The notes below the pieces were generated by a model. That model did not search any database, had not been told where the DNA came from, and was given only the letters and a program-made list of their open reading frames with translations. This document shows positions 31,894-59,044 of a stretch of 64,000 nucleotides of DNA, one piece after another. A program made the position numbers and the translations under genes. The stretch covers positions 310,001-374,000 of the forward strand of contig NZ_VIQO01000011.1 of the NCBI RefSeq assembly GCF_007483665.1. The letters run 5' to 3'. Positions within the stretch are counted from its first letter, which is position 1, and each line of letters starts with the position of its first letter. This DNA is from Catellatospora sichuanensis. Its GTDB lineage: Bacteria > Actinomycetota > Actinomycetes > Mycobacteriales > Micromonosporaceae.

Positions 31894-31916
31894 GGCGAGT
31901 CCTCCGGCCCGGATGG

Positions 31917-31948
31917 CGGTGGGGGCCGCGTGGGTGCGGCCCCCACCG
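31917..31948 (-). terminator. 13-bp perfect hairpin between the WxL and DUF916 genes
   Basis: Arms 31917-31929 and 31936-31948 pair perfectly around GTGGGT. Being inside an apparent operon, it may lower downstream expression or protect the upstream mRNA, giving more WxL than anchor protein. Confidence 0.6.
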
Positions 31949-31953
31949 GTCGG

Positions 31954-32586: not shown

Positions 32587-32618
32587 GGGTACTCCTCTGT
32601 TCTTCGTGGCTGATGGGT

Positions 32619-35720: not shown

Positions 35721-35749
35721 CACGGGGTCGATGTCCTTCTGCAGGAGGG

Positions 35750-35781
35750 AAGGTGGCGGCACCGCGAGGCACCGCCACCTT
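35750..35781 (-). terminator. Intercistronic hairpin after the MGH1-like gene
   Basis: AAGGTGGCGG (35750-35759) pairs perfectly with CCGCCACCTT (35772-35781), loop 12 bases, directly after the upstream stop and before the GH43 ribosome site. It may be a partial terminator or an mRNA stabiliser. Confidence 0.5.
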
Positions 35782-35790
35782 TCGACAGGG

Positions 35791-38700
35791 CTAGCCGCAG
35801 GTGATCGCGCCGTAGGGCGCGGTCAGCTGCGCGGTCACCGGCTGGCCGCCGACGACCCCGGTCGCCTTCACCGTCGCGATGCCCGCCGGCACCGTCCGTG
35901 CCCGACTGTTGAAGGCCTGATAAGCGGACTTGCCGGGAACCACCTTCGGCACGGTGCGTGCGCCGTACGGCGTGCTCAACTCGATGGTGAGCGGCTCGTC
36001 CTCGGCGTTGCGGGCGTTGACCGTGACATAGGCGTTGGCGCCGATGCACTGCGTGCGGGCCTGGACCTCGACGTCCCATACGGGTGCGCCGTCGCCCACG
36101 ACAAGGGTCAGCGTGGTCTGTGTGGTTCCGGCCTCGCTGACGTATCGGGGCAGGACCAGGTCACCGACGACGGTGTAGCGGCCAGGGGTGCCGACGATGC
36201 CGGCGTCGAAGTTCCAGTCGACGCCGATAGCCTGGTTGTCCCGGGAGCCGTCGTTGTAGGACACCTCGACTTCGGTGGGCAGGTAGGGCAGCTCCCCCAC
36301 GGCCACGTTCTGCTCGAACGTCTCCGCGCCCTGGATCGAGATGCCGTCGTCGGCCGTCTCGGGACGCACGTAGACGCGGGCCTCGGCGATCAGCCCGTAG
36401 GCGTCGTTCGTGCCGTAGACGACGAACGGGTCGACGTTGGTCTCGGCGACCATGTCCGGCGTGATCTGCTGCCAGGTGAATCCGATCTGCCCGCGGGCGC
36501 CGCCGGCGTACACCCCGTCGAGCGTGCTCGGCAGGGTGGGCACCTGACCGACGGTGGTCCGGATGAGCACCGGAGTGCGCACCGTGTCGACGGTCTCGCC
36601 GTTGGCCCGCCAGCGCAGCACACCGGTGCCTGCGCCGCCGGTCTGTACGCCCCAGATCCGGATGCGCAGCCGACTGGTCGCGATCGGCTCGAACGTGAAT
36701 CTGTTGTAGGCGCCGACGGCCAGGCCGTCGGCGTACGTCGAGCCCTTGAGGGTTACCGGAGTCCAGGTGGTGCCGTCGGTGGAGCTCTCGATGACGTACG
36801 TCGTGGCCGTGGGTCGGCGGGTGCCGCCGTTGTCGTCGTACCAGTAGACGTCGGCCGACGACAGCCGGACCGGTGAAGGCCACTGGTACTGGATCCACGC
36901 CTCCTGCTCGGGGCTGGTGCCGTTCTGCGGCTGGCCCCAGTTGCCCCAGCCGTTGCCGGCACCCGGGCTCGAGCTGCTCGGGGTGGTGCCTTCACTGACC
37001 CGCTGGTGGTTCTCCCACGATGCGGTGCCGCTGGTGGTGACGACCGCCGAGGCGCCGAACTCTGCGACGACCTCCCTCTCGGCAAGGGTCACGGTGACGG
37101 TCCGCTCGGAGCGCTTCTCGCCGTCGTCGGCGAAGAACCTCAGCACGTATTCGCCGGCGAGCGTGCCGGTCACCCGGGTCGCCGGCGCCTTGGCGTCGGC
37201 GAAGATGACACCTGCGCCGGCCGGCTTGGATACCGTCTCCCAGCCGAAGGCGAGTTCGCCGTCGTAGGGAACTCCGTCGTCGGAGGCGGTGCCGACCAGC
37301 CTGGTGGACAGGTTGCCGTCCGCGGAGCCGTCGCGCAGCGCGGTGACCACGGGAGCCTGGTTGACGACCGGGGGCACGTCGCGGCCGGAGGCGAACACCT
37401 GGATCTCCGAGATCGCCGTGTAGAAGGTCGGGTTGTTGGTGAACGCGACGCGGAGCTTGCCCGACGTCACCGCCGGGAACAGCACCTCGTTGAACTTCGC
37501 CGAGGTCACAGTGGGGCTCTTGGCCTGCCCCGGTAGTTCCCGCCATCCGCCGTTTCCGTCGGGCACCTGCACCCACCAGCGGGCGGGCTCCCGGTAGCCG
37601 CCAGGCTGGCGGTCGCTGACGAAGTACACCTTCACGTTGTCGAAAGACTTCGCTGAGCCCAGGTCGAGCTCGACGTAGCCGTTCTTGTCCGCCGTGCCGA
37701 AGTTGCCCCAGTACGGCTCGCTGGCGGTGACGCCGTCGGTCACCGCGGCCCGCGACACGGGCCGCTCGGTCAAGTTGATCGCGCCGGGCGCGTGGTTCAT
37801 CGAGGAGCTGCTCCAGCCGGGCGTGTGGAACTGCCGCCACGGCGTCGGCCGCACGCCCTGCTGGGAGTACGACGAGCTGAGTGCGGCGCCGGCCGCCAGG
37901 TTGGGCGCGTCCTCGGTGAGGTCGATGCCGGCCGTCTTGAGGTACTCGACGACCCGCTCGTCCTGGATCGGCGTGTCGACCGCGCTCGGGAAGTCGGCCC
38001 CGGCCGCCGCGGCGAAGGTGACGGTCAACCCGTCCTCGGCCTGCACCTGGTTGGTCTTCGGGTCGTAGGTGAGCCGGCCGAGCTTGTCGGTGCTGACCTT
38101 CCGCTCGCCGTTGAGGAACAGGCTGTAGCCCGCGCCGAGGCCGTACTTCGTGCCGTCGGGGTCCCAGACGATCGTGACGTCCTGGCCGTGGTACCGCAGG
38201 TTGTTCGCCATGAAGTGCTCGTAGCCGAACTTGATCGGCCACAGCTCGATCCTGTCGTCGGAACGCGGCTGCAGGCCCGCCATGTCCTCGACGAAGATGT
38301 AGTTCATGTTGCCGAGCATGATGTGGTTCGGGTTGTTGCGGTTGTAGGTCTTCGTGGCGGAGTTCCAGTTGGAGTAGTACTCAGCCTGGTTCGCGACCCG
38401 CAGGTCCGCGCCCGGGTAGATGCTCCAGGCCATCCAGTCCAGCAGCCGCTTGGCGTACGCCGGGCTGAGGTACTTGCCCTGCGGGTCGTAGTGGCGCAGC
38501 CCTGAGCGGACGCCGCGGTACTGCACGGTGAAGTTGATGTTGGAGAAGTTGTTGGAGCCACCGATCCCGTAGGCGGCACGGTCGTACTGGTTGGCGGTGT
38601 AGAACGGGAAGATCGGGAAGTTGTCGCCGTAGGTCAGGAAGCGGAATCCGTCGACGTAGGTCTGCCACTGGTCGAACGGGATGAGGTTCTGTGCGTATAC

Positions 38701-40521
38701 GTCGTAGAGGTTGGACTCCTTCGCCGGAATCAGCGTGCGGGCCGACTCGGGCAGCGGGTTGGGCCGGCCGTTGGAGCTGGGCGCGCTGACGGCTCCGTGC
38801 GACGTGCCGGCCAGGAACATCCGCATGTCGGAGCTCCACAGGCGGTTGAGCACCGCGGCGCGCACGCCGTCGGCACCGGCCGCCATCTGGTCGACCTTGG
38901 CCTGATCGGCACCGGAGATCTGGTACAGCTGCCGGGCGGCGTCGAACGCGCCCCACACGTACGCCGACTCGGGACGCTCGATCGTCCGCGACCCGGGTGC
39001 GCCGGCGTCGGCCTTCGGGTAGCCGAAAGTGATGGCGTCGGCGTCGTTGCCCGGCATGTAGTTGGTGTCGTAGGCGATGAGCTGGTCGTCATTGCCGTCG
39101 TAGTGCTCTAGCTGGCCGACCCCGTCGCCCTCGAAGTAGTGCGCGAACTTCGCGGCGAGCTGCCTGCCTCCGCCGTGCACGTTGTACGCCTCGAGGCCGG
39201 CTGTGCCGATGTACTGCGAGTAGTGGTTGTTCCAGCTCGTGTGACCAGGGCTGTCCAGGAAGGCCGAGGAACCCGACAGCTCGCCGATGTTGAGGATCTG
39301 CCCGTACGGCAGGTAGGGCGTGCGCAGCCACTTGGTGTCCTGCAGATGCATCGGCTGGGTCAGCGCCACCGCGTTCTGGTAGAGGTTCACCCCCTCGATC
39401 GTCGTCGGGTACTGGTAGACATGGCCGGGAGCGTTGGCGTCGAGGCTGTTGTAGCGCTCGCCCCACCACCGGTAGACAATGGCTTTCTCGAGCGCGGGGT
39501 CCGGCACGTCGATGTAGGGGACGTCCTGGGCCCAGCGGCGATGGAACGCCGTGATGCCGGTGCGCACCGCGTCGGCCGGCGCCATCTCGGCGTACTCGTG
39601 GAAGCTCGGCACTGTCTGCGGCAGGGAGGCCGAGGAGACCGCGCCGACCACCGACAGCGACAACGAGCCACCGGCGGGCACGGTCACCTCACGGTCGAGG
39701 TTCGCGCCGGTCCGGGTGAACCCGGCTGCGGTCAGGTGCGTCGCGACCGTGTTCCATGCGGTGTCGACGAGGCCGTTGTTGGATCCGCTGGTGATGGCGC
39801 GAGTGCCGGTGAGCTCGGCGGCACCTTCGCCAGGCTGGGTGGCGAGCGGCGAGGCGGCGCGGACGGTGAAGGTCGCGGGCCCGCTGCCCGGGTTGGTGAA
39901 CGAGATGGCGGTGACCGCGACGTTGTCGTGGGTGATGAACTTCGTCAGTTCGGCGGAAACGCCCGTGGTGCCGATCGTGTAGCGGCTCTTGGCGTGGCTC
40001 GGCGCGTTGAACCGGTTGGCGTTGACCTCGGCGACCGTCTGGCCGGGCACGGTCACGGTGTAGAGGTTGCCGAGATTGTTGGGCCCACCCACGAACGCGC
40101 TTCCGGCGAAGCCCATGACGGTGAAGTTGTTGTTGCTCGCGCCGCGCATGTACAGCGACCGGCCACGAGTCATCAACACCGCCGACCCGATCGTTCCCGG
40201 GACGCCGAGAATGCGGTCGAGGTAGTAGTCGGTGCCGCCCGCGGCCAGGTCTTTGTCGAAGATCGACTGGTGCATGCTGCCGGCGGAGAAAGGCACACCT
40301 GGCATCAGCTGGTTGGCGACGTCCCCGGCGTTGCTGTAGATCGGGTCGCCGATGTCCATCACGTGGCTCTGGCCGTCGGTGTAGACCCCGACGTCGCCCT
40401 CGTTGCCTGGCAGGATCGGGCTGGCGGCATGGGCCGGTGACGGCAGGCTCACCGCCCCTCCCAGCACGAGCGCGGCGAGGGCGCTCCACACCGGTACCGT
40501 CCTCACGCGTCTCCGGATCAT
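35791..40521 (-). CDS. Very large secreted MGH1-like (alpha/alpha)6-barrel glycosidase
   Basis: 1576 residues, the first gene of the operon. A signal peptide (WSALAALVLGGAVSLPSPAHA) leads to a beta-sandwich (about 35-310) and a helical barrel (about 320-790). The barrel motifs (YRWWGERYNSLDANAPGHVY, LQDTKWLRTPYLPYG, RPESAYVWGAFDAARQLYQ) look like MGH1/GH63-type glycosidases. Then follow a discoidin-like domain (about 870-1030), a PKD/Ig-like region (1035-1130), a second discoidin-like domain (1140-1260), Big_4 Ig modules (1265-1470) and the operon's shared C-terminal 95-residue module. The substrate is inferred from neighbours to be arabinose-rich glycan. ATG preceded by AAGGAG, 9 bases away. 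Confidence 0.72.
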   Translation of the reverse strand: MIRRRVRTVPVWSALAALVLGGAVSLPSPAHAASPILPGNEGDVGVYTDGQSHVMDIGDPIYSNAGDVANQLMPGVPFSAGSMHQSIFDKDLAAGGTDYYLDRILGVPGTIGSAVLMTRGRSLYMRGASNNNFTVMGFAGSAFVGGPNNLGNLYTVTVPGQTVAEVNANRFNAPSHAKSRYTIGTTGVSAELTKFITHDNVAVTAISFTNPGSGPATFTVRAASPLATQPGEGAAELTGTRAITSGSNNGLVDTAWNTVATHLTAAGFTRTGANLDREVTVPAGGSLSLSVVGAVSSASLPQTVPSFHEYAEMAPADAVRTGITAFHRRWAQDVPYIDVPDPALEKAIVYRWWGERYNSLDANAPGHVYQYPTTIEGVNLYQNAVALTQPMHLQDTKWLRTPYLPYGQILNIGELSGSSAFLDSPGHTSWNNHYSQYIGTAGLEAYNVHGGGRQLAAKFAHYFEGDGVGQLEHYDGNDDQLIAYDTNYMPGNDADAITFGYPKADAGAPGSRTIERPESAYVWGAFDAARQLYQISGADQAKVDQMAAGADGVRAAVLNRLWSSDMRMFLAGTSHGAVSAPSSNGRPNPLPESARTLIPAKESNLYDVYAQNLIPFDQWQTYVDGFRFLTYGDNFPIFPFYTANQYDRAAYGIGGSNNFSNINFTVQYRGVRSGLRHYDPQGKYLSPAYAKRLLDWMAWSIYPGADLRVANQAEYYSNWNSATKTYNRNNPNHIMLGNMNYIFVEDMAGLQPRSDDRIELWPIKFGYEHFMANNLRYHGQDVTIVWDPDGTKYGLGAGYSLFLNGERKVSTDKLGRLTYDPKTNQVQAEDGLTVTFAAAAGADFPSAVDTPIQDERVVEYLKTAGIDLTEDAPNLAAGAALSSSYSQQGVRPTPWRQFHTPGWSSSSMNHAPGAINLTERPVSRAAVTDGVTASEPYWGNFGTADKNGYVELDLGSAKSFDNVKVYFVSDRQPGGYREPARWWVQVPDGNGGWRELPGQAKSPTVTSAKFNEVLFPAVTSGKLRVAFTNNPTFYTAISEIQVFASGRDVPPVVNQAPVVTALRDGSADGNLSTRLVGTASDDGVPYDGELAFGWETVSKPAGAGVIFADAKAPATRVTGTLAGEYVLRFFADDGEKRSERTVTVTLAEREVVAEFGASAVVTTSGTASWENHQRVSEGTTPSSSSPGAGNGWGNWGQPQNGTSPEQEAWIQYQWPSPVRLSSADVYWYDDNGGTRRPTATTYVIESSTDGTTWTPVTLKGSTYADGLAVGAYNRFTFEPIATSRLRIRIWGVQTGGAGTGVLRWRANGETVDTVRTPVLIRTTVGQVPTLPSTLDGVYAGGARGQIGFTWQQITPDMVAETNVDPFVVYGTNDAYGLIAEARVYVRPETADDGISIQGAETFEQNVAVGELPYLPTEVEVSYNDGSRDNQAIGVDWNFDAGIVGTPGRYTVVGDLVLPRYVSEAGTTQTTLTLVVGDGAPVWDVEVQARTQCIGANAYVTVNARNAEDEPLTIELSTPYGARTVPKVVPGKSAYQAFNSRARTVPAGIATVKATGVVGGQPVTAQLTAPYGAITCG

Positions 40522-40808
40522 GTCCCTTGCTCCTTAATGTCGGTGGGTGTCCCCCGCCTGGGGAAAGCGCCGGCATCGGGCCTGCAGCGCTCACTTCGAT
40601 CGGACGACGGCACCCAACTCGTCAGGGCGGCCCGGACGCGCGTTGCCGAGGTTTTGTCCGGACCTTCGGGTCGAGGTCCGGCTGCAGCACCTCGCCGGTG
40701 GACGTACCGGCGCCGAGGTGCGGCTGGCAAGACGGCGTTGCGGCGAGGTCACTCGTGCTCGTGCCTACACGCCGCGGGCGCTTGCCGCCTACGGCGATGA
40801 TTTTTGAC

Positions 40809-40826
40809 GCCGAAAACCTTTTCGGC
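40809..40826. promoter_or_regulatory. 18-bp dyad, candidate LacI-type operator of the arabinan operon
   Basis: GCCGAAAACCTTTTCGGC: 8-base arms around CC. The overlapping 19-mer CGAAAACCTTTTCGGCAAT (40811-40829) recurs exactly at 58936-58954 before the NRPS operon. LacI-family repressors of glycosidase genes in actinomycetes use related CGAA-N-TTCG sites. It lies about 290 bases before the first start codon. Confidence 0.6.
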
Positions 40827-40918
40827 AATATGCACGGCACATTTCATGGTGGTGACATGGGGCGAAACCAGCTCGCCTACATCGCTGCGCAGGTTCGCCG
40901 TGGCCGCCAGGAACCCGC

Positions 40919-40931
40919 CGAAAACATTTCG
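40919..40931. promoter_or_regulatory. Second CGAAA-type dyad
   Basis: CGAAAACATTTCG: 5-base perfect arms around ACA, about 90 bases from the 40809 dyad. Paired sites would suit a looping or cooperative repressor. On its own it could be chance. Confidence 0.4.
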
Positions 40932-41051
40932 ACTCGCGCGGCGAGGCCGTGCAGAAACCGGTTGGCTGCCGGCTTCTGCACGGCCTAATGCAGGGTCGCT
41001 GCGGGAGGGGTCCGCGACGCGCGCCGCGCCGTCTGCGTCACTCTGCGCCAG

Positions 41052-41083
41052 ACCGCGGGTGGGCCTCGCGGCCCACCCGCGGT
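41052..41083 (-). terminator. Stem-loop ending the DUF6055 metalloprotease gene
   Basis: A 13-bp perfect stem (41052-41064 with 41071-41083) around CTCGCG, 4 bases beyond the stop codon on the minus strand. Confidence 0.7.
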
Positions 41084-41087
41084 GCGG

Positions 41088-43352
41088 TCAGGACGTGAAC
41101 ACCTTCACTTCGAGTAGGCCCACGGAGAATCCGGAGGCGCTTTGCAGCAGGACCCGCAGCCGGGTCGTGCTGACACTGGAGAAGGTCACCGTGTTGTACT
41201 GATTGACATTTCGCTGATAGGCACTCGCTCCGGGGACATCCACGTAGGAGCTGCCGTTCCAGTACTGCAACCGCCACGAGGCCGGAATGTCGATGCCACC
41301 GTTGTCGTCGAAGAGGTAGACCTGCGCGCGGCTGACCGTCTGCGCCGAGGACCACTGCAGCTCCGCCCACTGCTCGCCCTGATTGGGCCAGGTGCCCCAG
41401 CGGTTGCCCTGGTTGGCGCCGCCGAAGTTGGAACTCGTGGGCTCGTCGCCGTTGTTGACGGCTGCGCAGCTCTCCCATGCCGAGGTGAACGAGCAGACGG
41501 CGGTGGCCGACCGGGCGAGGTTCGTGCCCGGGTTCGGGCTCGGGGACGTCGACGGTGAGGGCGAGGGCGTCGGGTCGGTGCCGCCGGTGATGGCAAGTTC
41601 CGCGCTGCTGAACGTGCCGTGGGCCGGGTTGACGTCCGCCTCGGCGCCGCCGCCGTTGCAGGCGCGGCTCGGGTTGAACATCAGGTAGGTGCCCGCGGTG
41701 CAGCTGGCGCCGGTCGGACCGGCCGGTGGTTCGGCGTCGCCGCCGATGACGGCGCTGCCGCCGATGGTCACCCCGCCCTGGACGATGGCGTTGTGGCGGA
41801 CGATGGCGTTGCCGGTCACCGTCCCGCCGTTGACCCACGCCAGATCCTCGATGCGGGCGTTGCTGTTCACCGTGCCGCTGAACACCGCCGCCCGCGGCCC
41901 GACGTACGCGGACGCGGCGACGTTGGCGCTGTTGGAAACCCAGCCACCGCCGTTGGCGTGCCAGCGGCCGCCGACAGCGGCGGGCTTGACGTAGCCGGGC
42001 TGGTGGCCGTCGGGGATCGCACCTGAGATCCGGAATTCGTACGGGTAGCGCCGTTGGAGCGGCCAGCCGTCGAGGAAGGCGTACTTGGGCACGGCTGTCG
42101 GGGTGCCCGTCACGACGAGGAACACCTGGCTCTCGCCCGACTGCGTCTGGAAGCTGATCTGGCCGTCGTTTGAAGTGGTCAGCGGCCCGTAGCGGGGCAC
42201 GCCGTTGCGGACCGCGACGAAGCCGAAGGTCCAGCCGTTGGATCCGGTCTCGGCATGTCCCTTGAGGTGCAGACGGATCAAGGCACCGTCACTGTCCGGG
42301 ACCAGTTGGATCTTGTTATAGCCGTAGTCGGAGGGGGCCATGGCGTCGGAGATCCGGTAGTGCCGCAGGGAGGCGTTGACCGCATCGACGGGCACGCCCT
42401 TGTATGCGTTGAGGAAGCCGGCGCCGTAGACGCTCTGGATGAACGGCATGAAGGCGGCCCGGTTGGAGTAGTCCCAGGTGACGTTGCGCTGTGCGTACTC
42501 GCCCATCCGCCGGTTGAGTTCGGCCTGGGTGATGCCGGTGATCCGGCGGTAGACCTCGAGCGGGTGTTCGGTGTTGCGCGCCTCGTTCCAGATCCGGTTG
42601 AACATGCCGATGCCGTCGCGGTCCTTGATGTACTGCGCGAGCATCCAGGCGCCGTAGTGGTGGCGCGAGGACGAGTAGGTGAGGTTCTCGGTGCGCAGCC
42701 AGCGGGTCAGGTCTCCGGCGCCGCCGTTGGGGTAGACCTGCATCGCCATGAACTCGGCGCTGGCCTCCCAGAACGTTCCGGCCGATGCGTGGGTCAGGCC
42801 CATGCCGGAGCGGCCGAGGAAGGTGTAGTTCTGGAAGACGTGGCCCAGCTCGTGCGCCAAGCCCCATGATCCGGGGGCGGCTGCGGCCGGGGCGATGTTG
42901 ATGACGCCGACGCGGCCGTCGGTCGAGCCGCCAGTGGCCCAGGCGTCAAGCGCGGTGCGGTTCCATGTTCTCGTGACGATAACGATGATCTTGTGCTGGG
43001 CCAGCAGCCCGGTCTCCGGGGTGAACCGCATCGTGTTGACGTAGAACGAGTACAGGCTCTCCAATTGCGACAAGACGTTGGCGGGGTCGAATCGGAATTC
43101 GGCCGGGGCGCTGAGGGGGTTGGTGCCCGACTTCTCGCCCCACAGGAGGATGAAGTTGTTGGATTCGCGGGTGCGCTCCTGTGCCCATGGCACTTCGCCG
43201 GTGGTGCGCCACCGTTCCGGGATGAATACCGTCTTCGCGGCAGCGAAGGCTGGTGGCTGCAGCACTGTCGGCATTGCCGCCGGCAGCAGCGCCGCCGTCG
43301 CCACGCACAATGCGAGCGCGGCGCGGCGCCAGAATTTGTTTTGGGACGTCAT
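41088..43352 (-). CDS. Secreted DUF6055-type zinc metalloprotease with beta-helix and discoidin-like domains
   Basis: About 754 residues. Signal peptide (ALALCVATAALLPAAMPT). A DUF6055-like metalloprotease domain (about 45-440) has the zinc site GLAHELGHVFQN and a downstream acidic FWEASAEF. A segment of hexapeptide-like repeats (about 480-560; SNSANVAASAYVGPRAAVFS, NGGTVTGNAIVRHNAIVQGG) suggests a left-handed beta-helix. After a Pro/Ser/Thr linker comes a discoidin-like domain (about 625-754), highly similar to that of the metalloprotease at 59238. The target protein is unknown; a role in plant wall glycoprotein breakdown would fit the arabinosidases nearby. Start ATG 43352 with TGAGG upstream. 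It lies downstream of mbtH but behind a terminator. Confidence 0.78.
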   Translation of the reverse strand: MTSQNKFWRRAALALCVATAALLPAAMPTVLQPPAFAAAKTVFIPERWRTTGEVPWAQERTRESNNFILLWGEKSGTNPLSAPAEFRFDPANVLSQLESLYSFYVNTMRFTPETGLLAQHKIIVIVTRTWNRTALDAWATGGSTDGRVGVINIAPAAAAPGSWGLAHELGHVFQNYTFLGRSGMGLTHASAGTFWEASAEFMAMQVYPNGGAGDLTRWLRTENLTYSSSRHHYGAWMLAQYIKDRDGIGMFNRIWNEARNTEHPLEVYRRITGITQAELNRRMGEYAQRNVTWDYSNRAAFMPFIQSVYGAGFLNAYKGVPVDAVNASLRHYRISDAMAPSDYGYNKIQLVPDSDGALIRLHLKGHAETGSNGWTFGFVAVRNGVPRYGPLTTSNDGQISFQTQSGESQVFLVVTGTPTAVPKYAFLDGWPLQRRYPYEFRISGAIPDGHQPGYVKPAAVGGRWHANGGGWVSNSANVAASAYVGPRAAVFSGTVNSNARIEDLAWVNGGTVTGNAIVRHNAIVQGGVTIGGSAVIGGDAEPPAGPTGASCTAGTYLMFNPSRACNGGGAEADVNPAHGTFSSAELAITGGTDPTPSPSPSTSPSPNPGTNLARSATAVCSFTSAWESCAAVNNGDEPTSSNFGGANQGNRWGTWPNQGEQWAELQWSSAQTVSRAQVYLFDDNGGIDIPASWRLQYWNGSSYVDVPGASAYQRNVNQYNTVTFSSVSTTRLRVLLQSASGFSVGLLEVKVFTS

Positions 43353-43668
43353 GCAGGCCTCACATCGCAAGGGCGACCGCGTAAGTGCGGCGGTCGCGCG
43401 TCGTGTCCGGACCCGAGGTGCCCAAAACGCCGCCTGGTCTCCCGCTCGGCCTCGTTGCCGCGGAAGCGTGACGGCGTGCCTACCCGTCACCTTCAGTGGT
43501 ACGGCGAGTGTCGCACATATCGACATTCATCGACAAGATGTGCGGCAGCAGGGGCTTGTCGGAGATATTGCGATACAGAGTGTTCGGAGATGGATTCTGA
43601 GCGGGCTCGCCGCCGCCGCAGGCAAGCCCGCTCAGGTCACCGCAGGGGACGCCCCCGCCGCCTTCAGG
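43353..43668. other. Region between mbtH-like gene and DUF6055 gene
   Basis: 316 bases on which the NRPS transcript ends (stem-loop at 43597) and the DUF6055 promoter must lie. An inverted repeat, CGCACAT (43512-43518) and ATGTGCG (43538-43544) with inner TCGA copies, is a candidate operator. Confidence 0.4.
43597..43635 (-). terminator. Stem-loop ending the NRPS operon
   Basis: CTGAGCGGGCT (43597-43607) pairs with AGCCCGCTCAG (43625-43635), 17-base loop, about 34 bases past the mbtH-like stop. Confidence 0.65.
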
Positions 43669-43854
43669 TCAGCGGCGGGCACTGACCGGGGTCAGCTCAG
43701 TCCAGACGTCGTCGATGTGAGCCAGGCACCGGTCGCGCGGGCCGGTGAACCCCTCGGCATGCCAGCCTTCCGGCCGGTCTCGGTTGGCGGGCCAGATCGA
43801 GTGCTGGCCCTCGTCGTTGACGACCACCTGGAATGTGGTCACGTCGTCGAACAT
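43669..43854 (-). CDS. MbtH-like NRPS accessory protein
   Basis: 61 residues, the usual MbtH size, with the family pattern: FQVVVNDEGQHSIWP, then RPEGWHAEGF and CLAHIDDVWTELTP. The conserved Trp residues that cup the adenylation domain are present. MbtH proteins bind and activate A domains. It starts inside the end of the terminal NRPS gene (16-base overlap), with GGAGAGGA as ribosome site, so it is translationally coupled to the synthetases. It probably serves the Gly-, Ser- or cationic-residue A domains of this operon; which one needs it is not visible. Confidence 0.93.
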   Translation of the reverse strand: MFDDVTTFQVVVNDEGQHSIWPANRDRPEGWHAEGFTGPRDRCLAHIDDVWTELTPVSARR

Positions 43855-46800
43855 GGCGTCCTCTCCGCGCCGGGTCCGGCGCTCGGGTCGGCGTGCTGCT
43901 CGGCCGGGGTGGCCGTGAGCCGTTGTAGTTCGGCGAGCCCGACCAGGTCGTCGGGCTCGGCGTCGGGGGTGTTCCGGTCGAAGTGGGCCAGTACCCGGTG
44001 GCGCAGCGCGGCGGCGCTGAACGCGGCGATACACAGCCCGAATACCAGGTAGGTCAGGGCGATGCCACGTCCTTCGCCGACGCCCAGCAGGACGCCTACG
44101 GTGTCGGCGAGCGCCCCGCCCGGTGCCATCCATCGCTCCGCGGCGCCGGTTGCGGCTGGGGCGATGACCGCGAAGCCGAGCGGGATCGTCGACCAGGCGA
44201 CCAGCGTGTTGAGTGCGAATACCCGCCCGTGGAACCGCTGCGGCACCTTCGTTTGCACGATGGTGGCGTACACGCCGTTGACGACGGCGAGCAGGAACAG
44301 CATCCCGAAGGCGCCGGTGCCGATGATCGCGGTCGAGGGCCGTAGTCCGATCAGTGCGCCGCAGGCGCCCAAGGCGATGGCGCATCGGAGCATGCCGCGC
44401 ATCCGGTCGGTGCGCGGGCCGCCCCACACTCCGACCGCCAGGCCGCCGGCCAGTGCACCGCCACCGGCCGCGACCGCGACGTGGCCGGCCGTGGCGACGT
44501 CACCCTGCGAGATTGCCAGCGGTGACAGGAGCAGCAGCAGCGGTGACAGGAACACGTTGAGCCCGGCGAAGTAGAGCAGCATGGTGCGCAGCCCGGGGCG
44601 GCCCAGCGAGTAGCGCAGCCCGTGCCGTATCTCGGCGGCGATCGATTCGCGCCGTGAGTGGGCCAGCGTCGCCGGGAAGCGCATCAGCAGCAGAACCCCG
44701 ATGGAGAAGGCGTAGCTGAGTACGTCCGCGATCAGGATCCCGGCGATGCCGAACCAGGCCAGCGCGGCGACGGCGACCACCGGCACGACGAGCTGCGCCA
44801 GTCCGCCGGACATCTGGACCAGGCCGTTGGCGTGGCCGAGATAGCGCTTGGGGACCAGTTGCGGCACCGCCGAGGCGTAGGCCAGCCGCTGGAACGCCAG
44901 CGCCACCGACAGCAGTGCGATCATGATGTACACGGCGGTGGTGTCCAGCCGCCCGAAGGCGAGCAGGGCGAGCATGGCGGCCTGGGTGCCGCCGGCCGCG
45001 CAGTCGGCCAGCAGCATGACCCGACGGCGGTCGCTGCGATCGACGATCGCGCCTGCCAGGGGCAGGACCAGCAGGCCCGGCACGAGCCCGAGGGTGGCCA
45101 TCAGGGCGAAGCCCACCAGCGACCCGGTCTGGGTGTACAGCCACAGCGGCACCGCGAACTCGGTCAGCGCCGAACCGGTGATGGAGACGAGCTGGCTGAG
45201 CGCGACCACCGCGAAGCGCCCCATGCTGGGGGCGGGGGTGGTCGGTCGGTTGCCGGGCTGGTCCGCCTTCGGCGCGGCCGGGCCGATCCCGTCGGGCTCG
45301 TCGTGTGGGCCGGTGGGGCTCTCGTCGCCGGTCGGGTCTGTCAGGTTCAGGTCGACGGTCGTGGTGGCGGAGACGCCGCGCACGTGCCAGGTGCCCGCTG
45401 ACGGATTGGGGTCCGGTTCGGCCTGTAGGCCGCCTGCGAGCAAGGCCGGGTGGATCGTCGTGATGATCTGGGCGACTTCGGCGGCGCGATGGTTGATGAA
45501 GTAGTGGCCGCCCTCGTCGAGGGCGACCACGGCGGTGTGGTCGCTGAAGGCGTGCCATTCCCGGTAGCGCTCGCGGTAGAGGTCGGTGGCGGGGTCGCGG
45601 TCGCCGACGATCGAGATCACGGCCGCGTCGAGGCGGGGCGGCGTGCCGGCGAACAGGTCGGTGTAGAAGTCTTCGGCCTCGACGCTGTCGCGGCGCATGG
45701 CTTTGATGACTGCACCCACCTCGGCGGGTTCCAGGCCGGACAGGTCTACGCCCATGCCGGTGAGCCAGCTGGCGAAGACCCGGTCGCCGAGTAGCCGCTC
45801 GCGGTCGGCAAGCCGGGTCAGCAGGCCCAGTAGCCGACCCTTCGGACGGGCGAACGGGAACATCGCGCCGATGTAGACGGCAGCCGGCGGCCGGCCGGCC
45901 GCCTGCAGCCCCAGCGCGATCGCCATGGCGTACGCGCTGCCGACGCCGCAGTGGCCGTAGACGATCACGGGCCCGGGGACATGCGCGGCGATCTCGGCGA
46001 CGACGGCGGGCACCACTTCGGCCATGGGCCGGGCCTGCTCCTCGGTGCCCAGGTCGTGGCCGGGCAGCGCGAGGCTGAACAGCCGGTGGTGCGACGCGAG
46101 TGCTTCGGCCAGCGGCTGGTAGACGACGGCGCTGCCGCCGCCGTAGGGCACGCACACGACAGAGGCCAGGTGCGCGCCGGCGGTCGCGCGGGCCGGGCGC
46201 AGCTCGTGCAGCAGGCGGGCGGGGCCGTGGTCGGCGGTGTCGCGGGTCGTGTGCTCGGCCAGCCCGGCCACGGTCGGCAGCCGGAACAGGTCCATCACGC
46301 TGACCGCTGCCCAGCCCGCCTCGGCCAGGGGTCGCCGCAGCTTCGCGACGACCTGCACGGCCAGCAGGGAGTGGCCGCCCAGGTCGAAGAAGCTGTCGTC
46401 GCGGCCGACGCCGGTCGTGTCGAGGATCTGCCCGAACACGGCGGCGATCAGCTCCTCGGCCGGCGTGGCCGGGGCGGGGCCGTCGGTCACCGGGGTCCGC
46501 ACGGGCGCGGGCAGGGCCCGCCGGTCGACTTTGCCGCTCGGGCTCAGCGGCAACTGGTCGAGCAGCACGACCGACGCGGGGATGAGCTGCTCGGGCAGTG
46601 TGTCGCGCAGCCGTTCGCGCAGCCGGACCGGGTCCGGCGACGTGCCGGGGGCGGGCACTGCGTACGCGACCAGCCGTTGATCGCCGGGGCTGTCCTCGCG
46701 CAGCGCGACCACAGCCTCGGCGACGTCGGGTCGTTCGCGCAGCGCCGCCTCTATCTCGCCCAGCTCGATCCGAACGCCGCGAAGTTTGACCTGGTCGTCG

Positions 46801-47627
46801 AGGCGCCCAAGGTAGGTCAGCGTGCCGTCGGGGCGTAGCGCGGCCCGGTCGCCGGTGCGGTAGAGCCGTGTGCCGGCCGGGCCGTACGGGTCGGGCGGGA
46901 ACCGTTGCGCGGTCAGCCCTGGGCGGCCGAGGTAGCCGTCGCCGAGCCCCGCCCCGGCGATGCACAGCTCGCCGGGCACGCCGACCGGCTGGGGGCGGCC
47001 GCGCCGGTCGACGACGTGCAGATCGATGTTCTGGATCGGGCGGCCGATCGGCACCGACGCGACGGTGGCGAGGGCGTCGGGGTGGCAGTGCCAGGCGCTG
47101 ACGTCGATCGCGGCCTCGGTGGGGCCGTACAGGTTGTGCAGCTGGGCCGACGGCAGCGCCTGGATGCAGCGCAGCGCGAGCGGGCGGGGCAGTTCCTCGC
47201 CGCTGCACACGATGCGGCGCAGGTGCGCGCGGGCGCCGTCGAGGGCGGCCGGGTCGTCGTCGGCGTGGGCGAGCAGTGCCGCCAGCATTGACGGCACGAA
47301 GTGGACGGTCGTCACCTGGGCCTGGTCCAGCAGCCGGCACAGGTAGGCCGGATCGCGGTGCCCGCCGGGTCGGGCCAGGACCAGTCGCGCGCCTGCGGTC
47401 AGTGGCCAGATGAGTTCCCATACGGAGACGTCGAAGCTGGTCGGTGTCTTGTGCAGTACGGCGTCGGTGCGGTCGAGGGGGTAGGTGCGTTGCATCCAGT
47501 CGAGGCGGTTGACGATGGCGCGGTGGGAGTTGACCGCGCCCTTGGGCCGGCCGGTGGAGCCGGAGGTGTAGATCGCGTATGCCGGGTCGGTGGTGCGCAG
47601 ATCGACGGCGGGCGGTGGGCGGGCCGG
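43839..47627 (-). CDS. Terminal NRPS, 3' part: A (rest)-T-TE fused to an MFS exporter
   Basis: The open frame runs from just after an in-frame TGA at 47628-47630 and continues the A domain interrupted in the preceding frame (YTSGSTGRPKGAV, FDVSVWEL, NLYGPTEAAIDVS, ending SGKVDRRAL). A T domain (FFDLGGHSLLA) and a thioesterase follow. The thioesterase motif VIVYGHCGVGS has Cys where Ser is usual; partners are SIVGDRDP and EGGHYFINH. After a Pro-rich linker comes a complete MFS_3/EntS-like transporter (about 43.9-45.2 kb; LADCAAGGTQAAMLALL and about 11-12 hydrophobic segments). No ribosome site precedes the MFS part, supporting a true fusion. The hand-read A code DVWHVSLIDK matches serine. The end overlaps the MbtH-like gene. 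Confidence 0.88.
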   Translation of the reverse strand, partial: PARPPPAVDLRTTDPAYAIYTSGSTGRPKGAVNSHRAIVNRLDWMQRTYPLDRTDAVLHKTPTSFDVSVWELIWPLTAGARLVLARPGGHRDPAYLCRLLDQAQVTTVHFVPSMLAALLAHADDDPAALDGARAHLRRIVCSGEELPRPLALRCIQALPSAQLHNLYGPTEAAIDVSAWHCHPDALATVASVPIGRPIQNIDLHVVDRRGRPQPVGVPGELCIAGAGLGDGYLGRPGLTAQRFPPDPYGPAGTRLYRTGDRAALRPDGTLTYLGRLDDQVKLRGVRIELGEIEAALRERPDVAEAVVALREDSPGDQRLVAYAVPAPGTSPDPVRLRERLRDTLPEQLIPASVVLLDQLPLSPSGKVDRRALPAPVRTPVTDGPAPATPAEELIAAVFGQILDTTGVGRDDSFFDLGGHSLLAVQVVAKLRRPLAEAGWAAVSVMDLFRLPTVAGLAEHTTRDTADHGPARLLHELRPARATAGAHLASVVCVPYGGGSAVVYQPLAEALASHHRLFSLALPGHDLGTEEQARPMAEVVPAVVAEIAAHVPGPVIVYGHCGVGSAYAMAIALGLQAAGRPPAAVYIGAMFPFARPKGRLLGLLTRLADRERLLGDRVFASWLTGMGVDLSGLEPAEVGAVIKAMRRDSVEAEDFYTDLFAGTPPRLDAAVISIVGDRDPATDLYRERYREWHAFSDHTAVVALDEGGHYFINHRAAEVAQIITTIHPALLAGGLQAEPDPNPSAGTWHVRGVSATTTVDLNLTDPTGDESPTGPHDEPDGIGPAAPKADQPGNRPTTPAPSMGRFAVVALSQLVSITGSALTEFAVPLWLYTQTGSLVGFALMATLGLVPGLLVLPLAGAIVDRSDRRRVMLLADCAAGGTQAAMLALLAFGRLDTTAVYIMIALLSVALAFQRLAYASAVPQLVPKRYLGHANGLVQMSGGLAQLVVPVVAVAALAWFGIAGILIADVLSYAFSIGVLLLMRFPATLAHSRRESIAAEIRHGLRYSLGRPGLRTMLLYFAGLNVFLSPLLLLLSPLAISQGDVATAGHVAVAAGGGALAGGLAVGVWGGPRTDRMRGMLRCAIALGACGALIGLRPSTAIIGTGAFGMLFLLAVVNGVYATIVQTKVPQRFHGRVFALNTLVAWSTIPLGFAVIAPAATGAAERWMAPGGALADTVGVLLGVGEGRGIALTYLVFGLCIAAFSAAALRHRVLAHFDRNTPDAEPDDLVGLAELQRLTATPAEQHADPSAGPGAERTPCSTT

Positions 47628-49495
47628 TCACGCCACGGGGTGTCGTCGTCGAGCAGCACCAGCCGGCCGTGGCCGGGAAGGGCCGTCGCGGCGTCGCGGG
47701 TGGCGAGCACCATCAGCGCGCCGCAGTCGCCGAGCATGAACTCCAGCCGGCGGGCGGGGTAGTCCGGGTCGAGCGGCACGTATGCCGCGCCGGATTTGAG
47801 CACGGCGAGTACGGCGGTGACCAGGGCCGTGCCGCGTGGGGCGCAGACGGCGACGCGCACCCCGGGCCGGGCGCCGCGTTCGACGAGGTGGTGCGCCAGC
47901 CGGTCGGCGCGGGCGTGTAGTTCGGCGTAGGTGACGGTGTCCGCGCCGTCGATGAGCGCCACGTCGTCCGGCGTGGCGTGGACCTGCCGGTGCAGCAGGT
48001 CGAGCAGGGTCTGGTCGGGCACCACGACGCGGGGTCCCCGGCCCTCGGCCAGCACCCGCTCGGTCCCGGCGACGTCGAGCAGCGGCAGGTCCGCGATCGG
48101 GGTGTGCGGTTCGGCGAGGGCCGCGGCGAGCAGGGTCAGCAGGTGGTCGGCCATCCTGGCCACGGTGTCCGGGTCGAACAGGGCCGTGTCGTAGGTGAGG
48201 AAGGCGGCCAGGCCGCGGTCGTGCTCGTAGAGGTACAACTCGAGGTCGAAGCGGGTGGCGACGGCGTCGACGGGGAACCAGGCGATGGTGACCCCGCCGT
48301 GCAGCGTGCGCTGGGCGCGGGTGTAGTTCTGCATCGCGAGCGCGACCTGGAACAGTGGGGAGCGGCTGGTGTCGCGGGTGACCTTCAGCTCGTTGACCAG
48401 GTGCTCGAACGGAAGCTCCTGGTGGCTGTAGGCGTCCAGGGCGGTGTCGCGGACCCGGGTGACCAGTTGTGCGAAGGTCGGGTCGCCGGTCAGGTCGGCG
48501 CGCTGGGCCAGCACGTTGGCGCACATGCCGACCAGGTTCTCGAGCTCCGGGCGGGTGCGTCCGGCCACCGGCGAGCCGACTGCGAAGTCGTCCTGCCCGC
48601 TGTGCCGCCACAGCAGCACCTGGAAGGCCGCCAGCAGCACCATGTACGGTGTCGCGCCCAACGTGGTGGCGAGCCGGCCGGCTGCGGCGGTCAGCTGGGC
48701 GTCGAGGTGGAAGCCGTGGGCCGCACCGGCGAACGCCTGCCGCGCTGGGCGGGGACGGTCGGTGGGCAGGTCCAGCGGCGGCAGTGCGGCGAGCCGGTCT
48801 CGCCAGTAGCCGAGGTCGTCCGCGCAGGCCTGGGCGGTGAGCCGGGCCCGCTGCCAGGCGGCGTAGTCCCCGTAGCGGACCGGTGGCTCGGTGGTGTCGG
48901 GGACGCCGCCGACGAGCACGGTGTCGTAGGCGGCGGCGAACTCGCCGATGATCAGGTCGGTGGACCAGCCGTCGGCGGCGATGTGGTGCAGGGACAGCAG
49001 CAGGATGTGGTCGTCGGGGCCGCGGCCGATCAGCGTGGCGCGTAGCAGCGGCCCGGCGGCCAGGTCGAACGGCTGGGCCGCGTCCGCGGTGACCAAATCG
49101 CGGGTGTGCCGGTCGCGTCCGGCGGGGTCCAGCCCGGCGGGCACGGTCACCACGGCCAGTGGCACAGGCGCGGGGGCGGCAGTGGTGGCGTGCGGGCGGC
49201 CGTCTTCGTCGGCGTGGACCCGCAGGCGCAGGCTCTCGTGCCGGGCGACGACGGCGGTCAGCGCGGCGGTGACAGCGTCGGGGTCGAGGGGCCCGCGTAG
49301 TTCGAGGGCGACGGGCACGACGTAGGCGGCGGTGCCGGGCGCGTACTGCTCCATAAACCACAGCCGTTCCTGCGCGAACGACAGCGGCAGCGGGGAGGCG
49401 GGGCGGCGGGCGATGCCTGCCGTCAGTTCCCGTCGGCGCAGCCGTTGCTGCAGCAGCGCCTGTTTTGCGTCGCTGACCTGGTGGGCCGCTGTCAT
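47399..49495 (-). CDS. Terminal NRPS, 5' part: C-A (frameshifted gene)
   Basis: This frame encodes a condensation domain (about residues 25-450; LSFAQERLWFMEQY, active-site LLSLHHIAADGWS near 170) and the start of an A domain (LTYAEL-type VTYAELHARADRLA, KSGAAYVPLDPDYP). Past VLLDDDTPWRDRPAHRPP the residues become meaningless until the stop at 47399. The expected continuation (VDLRTTDPAYAIYTSGSTG) sits in another frame. A one-base insertion or two-base loss in the GC run at 47607-47627 would rejoin the two parts into one gene of about 1880 codons. Start ATG overlaps the upstream NRPS stop as ATGA. Whether the shift is real or a sequencing error cannot be decided here. Confidence 0.85.
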   Translation of the reverse strand: MTAAHQVSDAKQALLQQRLRRRELTAGIARRPASPLPLSFAQERLWFMEQYAPGTAAYVVPVALELRGPLDPDAVTAALTAVVARHESLRLRVHADEDGRPHATTAAPAPVPLAVVTVPAGLDPAGRDRHTRDLVTADAAQPFDLAAGPLLRATLIGRGPDDHILLLSLHHIAADGWSTDLIIGEFAAAYDTVLVGGVPDTTEPPVRYGDYAAWQRARLTAQACADDLGYWRDRLAALPPLDLPTDRPRPARQAFAGAAHGFHLDAQLTAAAGRLATTLGATPYMVLLAAFQVLLWRHSGQDDFAVGSPVAGRTRPELENLVGMCANVLAQRADLTGDPTFAQLVTRVRDTALDAYSHQELPFEHLVNELKVTRDTSRSPLFQVALAMQNYTRAQRTLHGGVTIAWFPVDAVATRFDLELYLYEHDRGLAAFLTYDTALFDPDTVARMADHLLTLLAAALAEPHTPIADLPLLDVAGTERVLAEGRGPRVVVPDQTLLDLLHRQVHATPDDVALIDGADTVTYAELHARADRLAHHLVERGARPGVRVAVCAPRGTALVTAVLAVLKSGAAYVPLDPDYPARRLEFMLGDCGALMVLATRDAATALPGHGRLVLLDDDTPWRDRPAHRPPSICAPPTRHTRSTPPAPPAGPRARSTPTAPSSTASTGCNAPTPSTAPTPYCTRHRPASTSPYGNSSGH

Positions 49496-52400
49496 GCCTG
49501 CCCTCCCAGCAGTGCCTGGGCCTCGTCGTCGGTGAGCCGGTCCAGGTCGGCCAGGATCAGTTGCTCGACCGCGGCGGCCAGCGCGGCGAGGGTGCGGTGG
49601 GTGAACAGCGTCCGCAGCGGCACCGGCACCTCGACCGTCGCGGTGAGTCGGGCGGCGACACGGGTTGCCAGCAGCGAGTGCCCGCCGACGGCAAAGAAGT
49701 CGTCGTGCGCACCGACGCGGTCCACGCCGAGCACGTCCTGCCAGACCTGCGCCACCAGCTCTTCGGCGTCGGTGCGCGGCGGGGTGTGCGGCTGTTCACG
49801 CAACCGCTGGTCGGCAGGGTCGGGCAGGGCGGCTCGGTCGACCTTGCCGTGCCGGTTCAAAGGCAGCCGGGGCAGCGCGACGAACCAGTTGGGCACGAGA
49901 TGCGCCGGCAGCCGCTCAGTCAGGTGTGCACGCAGGTCCGCGGCTTCGACGTCGGGAGCGACGACGTAGGCGACGAGGCGGCGGTCGCCGGCGATGACCT
50001 CCCGGGCCACCACCGCGGCCTGGGTCACCCCGGGGTGGTCCAGCAGGTGCGCCTGCACCTCACCCGTCTCGATCCGGAAACCGCGGATCTTGACCTGGTC
50101 GTCGTCGCGGCCGAGGAACGTCAGCACACCTGCGGAGTCCAGGCGCACCCGGTCGCCGGTGCGGTAGAGCCGTGCCCCCGGCGGCCCGAACGGGTCCGGG
50201 ACGAACCGCGACGCGGTGAGCCCGGCCCGCCCGTGGTAGCCGTCGGCCAGCCCGGTCCCACCGAGGTACAGCTCGCCGACCGCGCCGGCGGGCAGCATGC
50301 GCAGATCGCCGCCGAGCACGTACGCCCGTACCCCGGCCAGCGGACGTCCGATCGGGACGATGCGGTCGGCGTCGGCGGCGGTGAGTTCGTGTGCGGTGGC
50401 GACGATGGTGGTCTCGGTGGGGCCGTATGTGTTGACCAGCCGGATCCGTTCGCCGTGGGTGGCGTGCCAGCGCGCCAGCGCGGCGGCGTCGACCTGGTCG
50501 GCGCCGAGGATCAGCAGCCGCAGTCCGGACGGCCAGGCCACCTCGCCGTCGACCAGCTCGTGCCAGTACGCCGTGGGCAGGTCGAGGACGGTGACGTCGC
50601 CGCCGGCGGGGGTGGCCAGGATCTCGGGCAGCAGCGCGTCGGGCTGCTCGCGCAGCAGCAGGGTCGCGCCGGCGCTCAGGCTGGGGAACACCTCCTCGGC
50701 GTGGGTGTCGAAGCTGGTGGCGGCGAACTGAAGCACCGTGTCGCCGGGTTCGAGACGGTAGTGCGCCCGCATCCAGCGCACCCGGGCGGTCAGGGCGCGG
50801 TGGCTGACGCGTACGCCTTTGGGCTGCCCGGTGGAGCCGGAGGTGTAGATGAGGTAGGCGGTGTCACCCGGCCGAGCGGCCGGGGCCCCGCTGTCGTGCG
50901 GCCCGTCCGCGTGGTCGGGGACGTCGGCGCCGGGGATAGACAGCGCGGGTGGGGGCTCGGTCAGGTCGAGCAGGGTGGGGGCCGCGGGCAGGCGGTGGTG
51001 CAGGCCCGCGGGCGCGACGACGGCCGTGGCGTTGCTGTCGCGCACCAGGTGGTGCAGGCGCGCATCGGGGTAGGACGGGTCGAGCGGCAGGTAGGCGGCG
51101 CCCGTTTGCCAGCAGGCGAGCATCGCGGTGACCAGGTCGAACGACGGCGGCAGGCAGATGCCGACCACGTCGCCTGCGGTGACCCCGGCGGCGCGCAGCT
51201 TCGCTGCCGTCGCGGCGACCCGCTGGTGCAGTTGGGCGTAACCGAGCCGGTGTTGTCCCTGGCGCAGCGCGACCGCACCGGGTGTGGTGCGGGCACGGTC
51301 GGCGATCAGGTGGGCCACGGTCCGCCCGGCGGAATCCAGCTCGGGTTCGGGTCCGCGGGCCCATGCGGTGAGCTGTGCGCGCTCGGCGGGCAGCAGCGGG
51401 TCCAGGTCCCGCAGGCGGGTCGCGGGGTCGGCGACGACCTGGCGCAGCAGCGCCTCGAAGTGGGCGCCGAGGCGGGCGACGGCGTGGGGGCTGAACAGCC
51501 TGGCGCGGTAGCCGAAGATCACCGCGAGGCCGTGGGCGTCGCGCCAGGCCTCGACCGCGAGGTCGAGCTTGCTGTGCCGGAAGCCGTCGTCGAACGGCTC
51601 GGTGGTCAGCCCGTCGAGCGTGAACGCGGCGCTGTGCGGGTTCTGCAGCACGAACGTCGTACGCAGCAGGCCTTGCCGGGATGGGTCGCGGCCGCCCGGG
51701 CCGTCGGCGAGCAGCTGCTCGAACGGGACGGCGGGGTGGGCGTAGGCCCGTAGCGCGGTGTTTCTGGTGCGGGCGAGCAGATCGGTGAAGCTCGGGTCGC
51801 CGGTCAGGTCGCCGCGCAGCACGATCGTGTGCAGGAAGCAGCCGACCAGCGGTTCGGTCTGCACCTGGTCGCGGCCGGCGGTGAAGGTGCCGACGGCGAT
51901 GTCGCGCTGACCGGTGTAGCAGTGCAGCAGGGCCTGGTAGGCGGTCAGCAGGGTCATGAACAGGCTGCACCGGGCGCTGCGGGCCAGTTGTTCGACGGCG
52001 GCGGTGAGGTCGGCGGGCAGGCGGTGGGTGTGGTAAGCGCCGCTGCTGTCACCGCCGCCGGGCAGGTCTGCGGGCAGCTGCGGCGGGTCGAGCCCGGCCA
52101 GCTGTTCGCGCCAGAACTCCTGCGCCGTCGGGTCGATCCCGGCCGCGCGTTGTCCGCCGGCCCACCGGGCGTGGCTGGTCGTCAGCGGAGGAAGCGGCTC
52201 GTCGGCGCCACGCCGGTGGCCGCGGTAGCGCCGGCCGAGGTCGCCGGCCAGCACGTCCAGCGACCAGCCGTCGGCGACGAGGTGGTGCATCACCAGGACC
52301 AGGACGTGGTCGTGCGGGGCGAGCCGCAGCAGCGCGACCCGCAGCAGCGGCGCGGTGGCCGGGTCGAACGGCTCGTTGGTGCGCGCGGCGACGGCGGCGT

Positions 52401-52692
52401 GGGTGCGCTGCTCGACCGTTGCCGGGTCGCCGGCGCTCAGGTCGACGTGCTCGATCGGCACCGGCGCAGGGGCGGTGGTGTGCTGTCGCAGTACGCCCGC
52501 GGCGTCGCAGTCGAAGACGGTGCGCAGCGGCTCGTGGCGGGCGGACAGGTCGTCGACGGCACGCTGGAGCGCGTCGGAGTCGAGGTCGCCGCGCAGTCGC
52601 CGGACCAGGAACATGTTGTAGGACGGGTCGCCGGGAGCAAGCCGGTCCTGCAGCCACATCCGTTCCTGGGTCAGCGTCACCGGTGCCGTCAT
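49492..52692 (-). CDS. NRPS module C-A-T, predicted cationic amino acid
   Basis: 1066 residues. C domain (about 1-430; LTQERMWLQDRLAPGD, LVMHHLVADGWSLD near 137), A domain (about 450-970; YLIYTSGSTGQPKGV, TYGPTETTIVAT, YRTGDRVRLDSAG, HGKVDRAAL) and T domain (FFAVGGHSLLATR near 1005). My hand alignment of pocket residues gives about DTEDIGTIVK; the acidic Glu and Asp at the third and fourth positions suit a positively charged side chain such as Lys, Orn or beta-Lys. Start ATG 52692 and stop at 49492 both overlap neighbours as ATGA, so the synthetases are made in step. No epimerase or methylase domain. Confidence 0.92.
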   Translation of the reverse strand: MTAPVTLTQERMWLQDRLAPGDPSYNMFLVRRLRGDLDSDALQRAVDDLSARHEPLRTVFDCDAAGVLRQHTTAPAPVPIEHVDLSAGDPATVEQRTHAAVAARTNEPFDPATAPLLRVALLRLAPHDHVLVLVMHHLVADGWSLDVLAGDLGRRYRGHRRGADEPLPPLTTSHARWAGGQRAAGIDPTAQEFWREQLAGLDPPQLPADLPGGGDSSGAYHTHRLPADLTAAVEQLARSARCSLFMTLLTAYQALLHCYTGQRDIAVGTFTAGRDQVQTEPLVGCFLHTIVLRGDLTGDPSFTDLLARTRNTALRAYAHPAVPFEQLLADGPGGRDPSRQGLLRTTFVLQNPHSAAFTLDGLTTEPFDDGFRHSKLDLAVEAWRDAHGLAVIFGYRARLFSPHAVARLGAHFEALLRQVVADPATRLRDLDPLLPAERAQLTAWARGPEPELDSAGRTVAHLIADRARTTPGAVALRQGQHRLGYAQLHQRVAATAAKLRAAGVTAGDVVGICLPPSFDLVTAMLACWQTGAAYLPLDPSYPDARLHHLVRDSNATAVVAPAGLHHRLPAAPTLLDLTEPPPALSIPGADVPDHADGPHDSGAPAARPGDTAYLIYTSGSTGQPKGVRVSHRALTARVRWMRAHYRLEPGDTVLQFAATSFDTHAEEVFPSLSAGATLLLREQPDALLPEILATPAGGDVTVLDLPTAYWHELVDGEVAWPSGLRLLILGADQVDAAALARWHATHGERIRLVNTYGPTETTIVATAHELTAADADRIVPIGRPLAGVRAYVLGGDLRMLPAGAVGELYLGGTGLADGYHGRAGLTASRFVPDPFGPPGARLYRTGDRVRLDSAGVLTFLGRDDDQVKIRGFRIETGEVQAHLLDHPGVTQAAVVAREVIAGDRRLVAYVVAPDVEAADLRAHLTERLPAHLVPNWFVALPRLPLNRHGKVDRAALPDPADQRLREQPHTPPRTDAEELVAQVWQDVLGVDRVGAHDDFFAVGGHSLLATRVAARLTATVEVPVPLRTLFTHRTLAALAAAVEQLILADLDRLTDDEAQALLGGQA

Positions 52693-55811: not shown

Positions 55812-55819
55812 GGTGAACC

Positions 55820-58870: not shown

Positions 58871-58935
58871 TGTGTACGACTCGCGGCCACTGGCCCTCCC
58901 GGGGTGCGGGTCTCGATGGCTGCCACCATGCCGGA

Positions 58936-58954: not shown

Positions 58955-59044
58955 CGTCTCGCATCTGGAGTGCGATAGACCTATTCGGCTGGCTGGCGTT
59001 CGAATCACACGTCTTGGCACATGAGGACAGCACATCGCCCCCGC

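Follow-up and report, generated by a model that had tools for sequence, protein, structure and literature searches.

Nonribosomal peptides are usually exported by proteins separate from the synthetase (NRPS), and efflux proteins of the major facilitator superfamily (MFS), whose MFS_3 family includes siderophore exporters, are usually free-standing. The obafluorin NRPS ObiF1 (ObiF; PDB 6N8E) forms a beta-lactone via the catalytic Cys, the position-II Asp, and Gly1173 at position I of its thioesterase (TE); the Cys is required for the lactone, the C1146S variant giving only the hydrolysed acid, and the loss of Arg1190 lowers the activity about tenfold (PMC6668435). The TE of the sulfazecin NRPS SulM (PDB 8W2C) also has a Cys nucleophile and a position-II Asp (PMC11298585). 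An Asp at position II is likewise present in the type II thioesterase RifR, and the TE of EntF carries its Asp at position I (PMC6668435).

The window analyzed here, a 64,000-nucleotide stretch of Catellatospora sichuanensis DNA, contains a terminal NRPS gene in which an MFS domain is fused behind the TE. Like ObiF1, the fusion has the order C-A-T-TE, a TE with a nucleophilic Cys, an Asp at position II, and a small position-I residue, and a predicted terminal beta-hydroxy amino acid; its MbtH partner is adjacent where that of ObiF1 is fused. It differs in that ObiF1 ends in an MbtH domain rather than an exporter, has the strict GXCXG motif, starts from 2,3-DHB, and incorporates a beta-hydroxy-nitro-homoPhe residue (PMC6668435). 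With SulM it shares the Cys, the position-II Asp, and a predicted small peptide product; SulM, however, has a Gln-Cys-Asn motif and a terminal diaminopropionate residue (beta-lactam). A SulM-type beta-lactam-forming TE was rejected, as the window has His-Cys-Gly at this motif. Neither 'MFS' nor 'transporter' occurs in the main text of the SulM paper (PMC11298585). The type II thioesterases RifR and BorB showed similarity to the fused TE at 69 to 94 bits in a profile search, and RifR shares its position-II Asp (PMC6668435); unlike the fused TE, type II enzymes are free-standing and usually have a Ser nucleophile. No bacterial NRPS-TE-MFS fusion was found described in the titles, opening parts of abstracts, and term counts of a literature in which subscription journals were thinly covered. 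Automatic product names at NCBI may join NRPS and MFS.

Organization of the NRPS locus

All features of the locus lie on the minus strand. The assembly line begins with a starter protein (55,820-59,302) comprising an acyl-ligase-like A domain followed by T and C domains; its code is NANFGTYPA, with no Asp at the amino-binding position, and its best NCBIfam matches were fatty-acyl-CoA ligases, with scores under their cut-offs. Two C-A-T modules follow, with the codes DIVQLGVVW (52,689-56,318; the true start is probably internal to the listed ORF) and DTEDIGTIV (49,492-52,962; the true start may be internal to the listed ORF). The termination module C-A-T-TE is split over two frames. The condensation domain and the N-terminal part of the terminal A domain (47,590-49,495, in the ORF 47,399-49,495) gave Pfam scores of 345.4 bits for Condensation and 107.1 bits for AMP-binding over profile positions 2-116. 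The C-terminal part of the A domain (46,530-47,615; AMP-binding 191.2 bits, profile positions 154-384) shares the frame of the TE-MFS segment, in which it is followed by a peptidyl carrier domain with a GGHSL motif (46,242-46,463; PP-binding 38.6 bits) and the TE (45,423-46,172; Thioesterase 63.5 bits). The TE contains the Cys nucleophile in YGHCGVGSA, the position-II Asp in GDRDP, and the His in GGHYF. From the TE, a linker (45,243-45,422) leads to the MFS exporter domain and its C-terminal tail (43,839-45,242), a range that includes the fused frame's stop codon. The linker core is predicted to be disordered; near the linker start lie a short strand and a conserved Trp.

The earlier note had read this segment as an exporter joined covalently to a terminal NRPS, and the reading held: TE, linker, and MFS domain share one open frame of 1,262 codons without a stop (43,842-47,627), which overlaps mbtH (43,669-43,854; MbtH 73.9 bits) by 16 bases. 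The start of mbtH and a clear ribosome site are readable, and no internal ribosome site was detected at a distance of up to 30 codons from the MFS start, as had also been claimed. The note had further expected a protein of about 200 kDa, which no single frame encodes in this assembly because the A domain is broken at about 47,588-47,609; the break was absent from the relatives examined, in which C-A-T-TE-MFS is all in one frame. Its position was deduced from where the alignments of relatives' proteins begin and end: six of six aligned in the TE-MFS frame from 47,588 onward, and of these six, four extended in the other frame to 47,591-47,609 and two ended there at 47,678 and 47,705. As assembled, the terminal NRPS gene of this strain may thus be non-functional or mis-sequenced.

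Recurrence and apparent joint inheritance of the fused domains

In a scan of named genomes, T-TE-MFS was found in one frame at 60 of 62 loci; of the two exceptions, one is broken at many places (L081) and the other runs off the contig edge (L082). The exporter therefore belongs to the frame of a terminal NRPS polypeptide in many genomes, and this recurrence rules out a chance or artefactual fusion. Within the genus, the MFS domain was matched at E 1e-30 in 9 of 11 genomes; open frames of at least 1,776 aa held 12 of the 16 listed matches. Matches were obtained at E 1e-40 in 187 of 354 genomes of the family and also in 25 of 394 genomes of the class, both tallies including some stand-alone transporters. 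Fusion-bearing genera include Micromonospora, Planotetraspora, Microtetraspora, Streptosporangium, Planomonospora, Dactylosporangium, Catenulispora, Actinophytocola, and Actinokineospora. With the TE-MFS segment as the query, 7 of 396 genomes of a phylum sample matched at E 1e-30; the fusion was present only in the window's own genome, and the other six matched the MFS part only, in frames of at most 788 aa. A phylum-wide spread was accordingly dropped, and the fusion is claimed only for the families in which it was seen. Five plasmid records had at least 80% query coverage, all from Streptomyces clavuligerus or Embleya, and in the three inspected the stretch was without an annotated feature. 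No phage sequence matched the query.

Several variant arrangements were observed. In six genomes of one family (f91), four MFS-domain matches each were detected, most of the listed ones in frames of more than 1,700 aa, and several such assembly lines may therefore coexist per cell. At one locus (L206:316-4119), the fusion continues past the MFS domain into a methyltransferase (T-TE-MFS-MT, 1,268 aa; Methyltransf_12 55 bits). At another (L147:3887-10960), a stand-alone MFS relative stands straight after an NRPS without a detected TE and ahead of mbtH, which represents an unfused arrangement within the same genus.

A set of 109 distinct fusions was compiled by leaving out the window copies (L009 and L123), broken loci (L019, L081, and L148), and identical rows. 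The pairwise identities of TE and MFS were correlated with r = 0.946 (5,886 pairs, from related and hence not independent sequences), and the mean identity was 0.64 for the TE, 0.58 for the MFS domain, and 0.29 for the linker. In an MFS tree of 75 rows, a 61-row clade (support 95/85) contained all 60 fused rows together with L207, the lone row without a TE, whose genome is in 650 contigs; the outer joins are unsure because several stand-alone rows have long branches. From these sequences, TE and MFS look co-inherited as a unit.

The linker ranged from 23 to 110 residues with 36 different lengths, always in frame, and was rich in Ala and Pro; a Trp was kept in 102 of the 109 rows. In the predicted structure, a strand at residues 271-278 precedes a core with pLDDT below 50 (model residues 280-318). 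Since the codon periodicity of G+C is kept and the third-position share of changes is low (0.39, versus 0.64 in the TE and 0.61 in the MFS domain; 564 pairs), the linker appears to be translated but loosely constrained. The direct hand-off from TE to exporter proposed at the outset found no support in a linker of this composition, predicted disorder, and variable length, which is consistent with a loose tether providing proximity rather than a fixed channel.

Thioesterase nucleophile and terminal residue

The best solved relative of the TE was ObiF1 in a single-sequence search (E 1.7e-24) and in a profile search (159 bits, E 1e-45; the next entry 94 bits, E 7.4e-26), and a Foldseek structure search ranked ObiF1 first and SulM third. 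The catalytic residue is Cys84 of the TE-MFS segment, which was Cys in 106 of the 109 distinct fusions, whereas Asp202 at position II, His232, and an Ala or Gly at position I (residue 112) were present in 109 of 109. An EntF-type trilactone synthetase was rejected on the position-I column, and this half of the protein scored 425.6 bits with the EntF model, whose cut-off is 2400. The window motif, GHCGVG, exceeds the strict GXCXG spelling in ObiF1 by one residue, so that the TE is described as resembling the ObiF1 type rather than as a member; the spelling GHCVG is present in L149 and a divergent class. In an alignment by eye, the column of ObiF1 Arg1190 is Leu in the window. By analogy, the window TE may work like ObiF1.

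The three Cys-less entries are free-standing TE-MFS proteins of 758-793 aa (L131:3998-6304, L132:7005-9278, and L133:6897-9275), in which the Cys is replaced (GHG, GHS, and GHG, respectively) and the Asp and His are kept. No NRPS domains were found in the 13 kb examined per locus, and all three adjoin a gene weakly matching DUF7133. That the domain is kept though its Cys is lost suggests a binding or docking role. Among 25 further fusions, in which identical rows are possible, 20 had Cys and 5 had Ser, which rules out a universal Cys nucleophile; in total, 126 of 131 NRPS-embedded fusions had Cys. As a control from the genus, 21 unfused TE-like hits yielded 15 with loci and 14 with the motif, of which 12 had Ser and 2 had Cys, in a set that may include other hydrolases.

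A-domain codes were read by alignment, and their assignments to Ser, Gly, Asn, Asp, and Orn are those we assume for such codes. The terminal code of the window, DVWHVSLID, is taken to specify serine, that is, a terminal beta-hydroxy amino acid. Among 69 terminal codes, 67 were of this serine type (DVWH-SL-D, the window included) and 2 of the Asp type. Of 107 fused ORFs in three sets, 67 combined Cys with a serine code, 18 Cys with an Asp-type code, 8 Cys with other codes, and 5 a Ser nucleophile with a DTEDIG code; 4 with Cys were covered without an A domain, 2 had no motif, and 3 were free-standing. Since the terminal code is of another type in eight Cys fusions, including the presumably Orn-like DVGEAGSID, the Cys nucleophile does not require a beta-hydroxy residue. 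Formation of a beta-lactone by the 18 fusions with an Asp-type code would depend on beta-hydroxylation, and no hydroxylase was found among the six proteins tested in one such cluster (L188). The five Ser-nucleophile fusions (L194, L195, L201, L217, and L218) all have the motif GHSSVG and the terminal code DTEDIGT[IV]I. These NRPS fusions nest inside the Cys clade of the MFS tree, and the nucleophile therefore seems to have switched when the terminal residue switched.

The order of the window line is an acyl starter, DIVQLGVVW, which we take to be glycine-like, DTEDIGTIV, and the serine code; the side chain selected by DTEDIGTIV was taken as basic because two of its pocket residues are acidic. 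The order Gly-like, DTEDIG, Ser was found again in several relatives. For a cluster of Micromonospora sp. DSW705, the backbone X-X-?-C2-Asn-Ser has been predicted (PMC5075396), a prediction that agrees with the order Asn-Ser seen in Micromonospora loci and makes that cluster a candidate counterpart.

Proposed release and export of the product

The MFS domain scored above the curated Pfam cut-off for MFS_3 and MFS_1, and its MFS fold is complete. A structure comparison (VIA-align) gave only MFS folds among 50 listed rows and was uninformative on the TE, and a single-sequence PDB search with the MFS domain gave no match at 0.01. The domain shares the common fold and family signatures of MFS efflux proteins (Pfam MFS_3, TIGR00900, and Mef(B)); all transporter models in the 25 NCBIfam rows shown belonged to efflux families (TIGR00900 and Mef(B)), with scores below their cut-offs. 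Similarity to EntS was at the MFS_3 level only, and the best 25 of 98 NCBIfam rows contained no EntS model. The MFS loops have invariant charged and Gly residues that suggest a working carrier, and no second exporter was found among the tested proteins of the operon and its flanks.

We infer the release chemistry, the export function and its direction, the beta-lactone, and the benefit of proximity from these comparisons, as follows. A short NRPS line would leave an N-acyl-Gly-(basic residue)-Ser chain bound as a thioester to its final carrier domain, and the TE Cys would accept this chain, as in ObiF1. Release would most likely occur when the serine hydroxyl attacks the thioester formed with the Cys, giving a serine beta-lactone, and the MFS domain, flexibly tethered to the cytosolic TE, would export the small product at the point of release, keeping a reactive compound from the cell interior. 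To the reading that a conserved release-and-export module of this kind ends a short NRPS line, we assign a probability of about 0.5. The limited self-exposure suggested in the earlier note gains plausibility from the likeness of the TE to enzymes that make reactive four-membered rings. The wider proposal, of widespread, undescribed synthesis-coupled exporters in which an ObiF1-like Cys TE forms a reactive peptidyl serine beta-lactone, the tethered MFS removes the product where it is set free, and the nucleophile follows the terminal residue while the exporter stays, is tentative and on the whole unlikely.

The same module might instead release its product by hydrolysis or macrocyclization only, as a linear acid, a larger lactone, or an EntF-like oligomer, and thus serve an ordinary lipopeptide or siderophore. 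This is possible, if on the doubtful side: the terminal residue of EntF is presumably also serine, with a similar code, siderophore exporters occur in MFS_3, and some Cys fusions have codes lacking a beta-hydroxy residue, whereas the Asp, His, and position-I columns are of the ObiF1 and SulM type throughout the 109 fusions and ObiF1 is far ahead of the other solved TEs in the profile search. A siderophore in particular is disfavored by a starter code that is presumably not of the DHB type and by the lack of siderophore import genes among the tested proteins in and beside the operon. It is improbable that the MFS domain acts as a membrane anchor or an importer with no product export; fold matches give no transport direction, but the transporter models matched are of efflux families and the invariant loop residues suggest a working carrier.

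It is equally improbable that the MFS domain is mainly a separate protein, made by an internal start or linker cleavage, with the open frame a by-product of high G+C and tight packing of genes. A broad scan detected an SD-like site ahead of some linker start codon in 22 of 115 fusions, and such sites preceded 6.8% of linker starts compared with 1.7% of all in-frame internal starts, an enrichment that speaks for such starts. Up to 30 codons from the MFS start, however, just 5 of 96 distinct rows had such a site, with three positions between them, and the window, whose neighboring mbtH has a clear ribosome site, had none; an independent start was mostly ruled out on this basis, and the 36 in-frame linker lengths and the codon periodicity also argue against a separate protein. 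That the window's own cluster is a decaying pseudogene or an assembly error, inert as written, is quite possible while falling short of probable. The break lies in a G+C-rich stretch where the examined relatives are intact, but the remaining NRPS domains of the window look intact by Pfam matches and motifs, and this explanation has no bearing on the fusion family as such.

Under the release-and-export reading, a fusion conserved in this way would bring export into the assembly line itself. It would offer a direct way to find products with coupled release and export, and would mark a large number of clusters as possible sources of small electrophilic peptides. The clade that apparently exchanged Cys for Ser along with the terminal residue provides a natural experiment.

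Upstream of the NRPS operon lie sugar-uptake-type ABC genes and an Ig-like/F5-8 protein, and downstream a DUF6055 protein. The operon adjoins a carbohydrate-degradation region (27,350-43,526) encoding GH127, GH43, F5/8 type C, Ig-like, and DUF6055 proteins.
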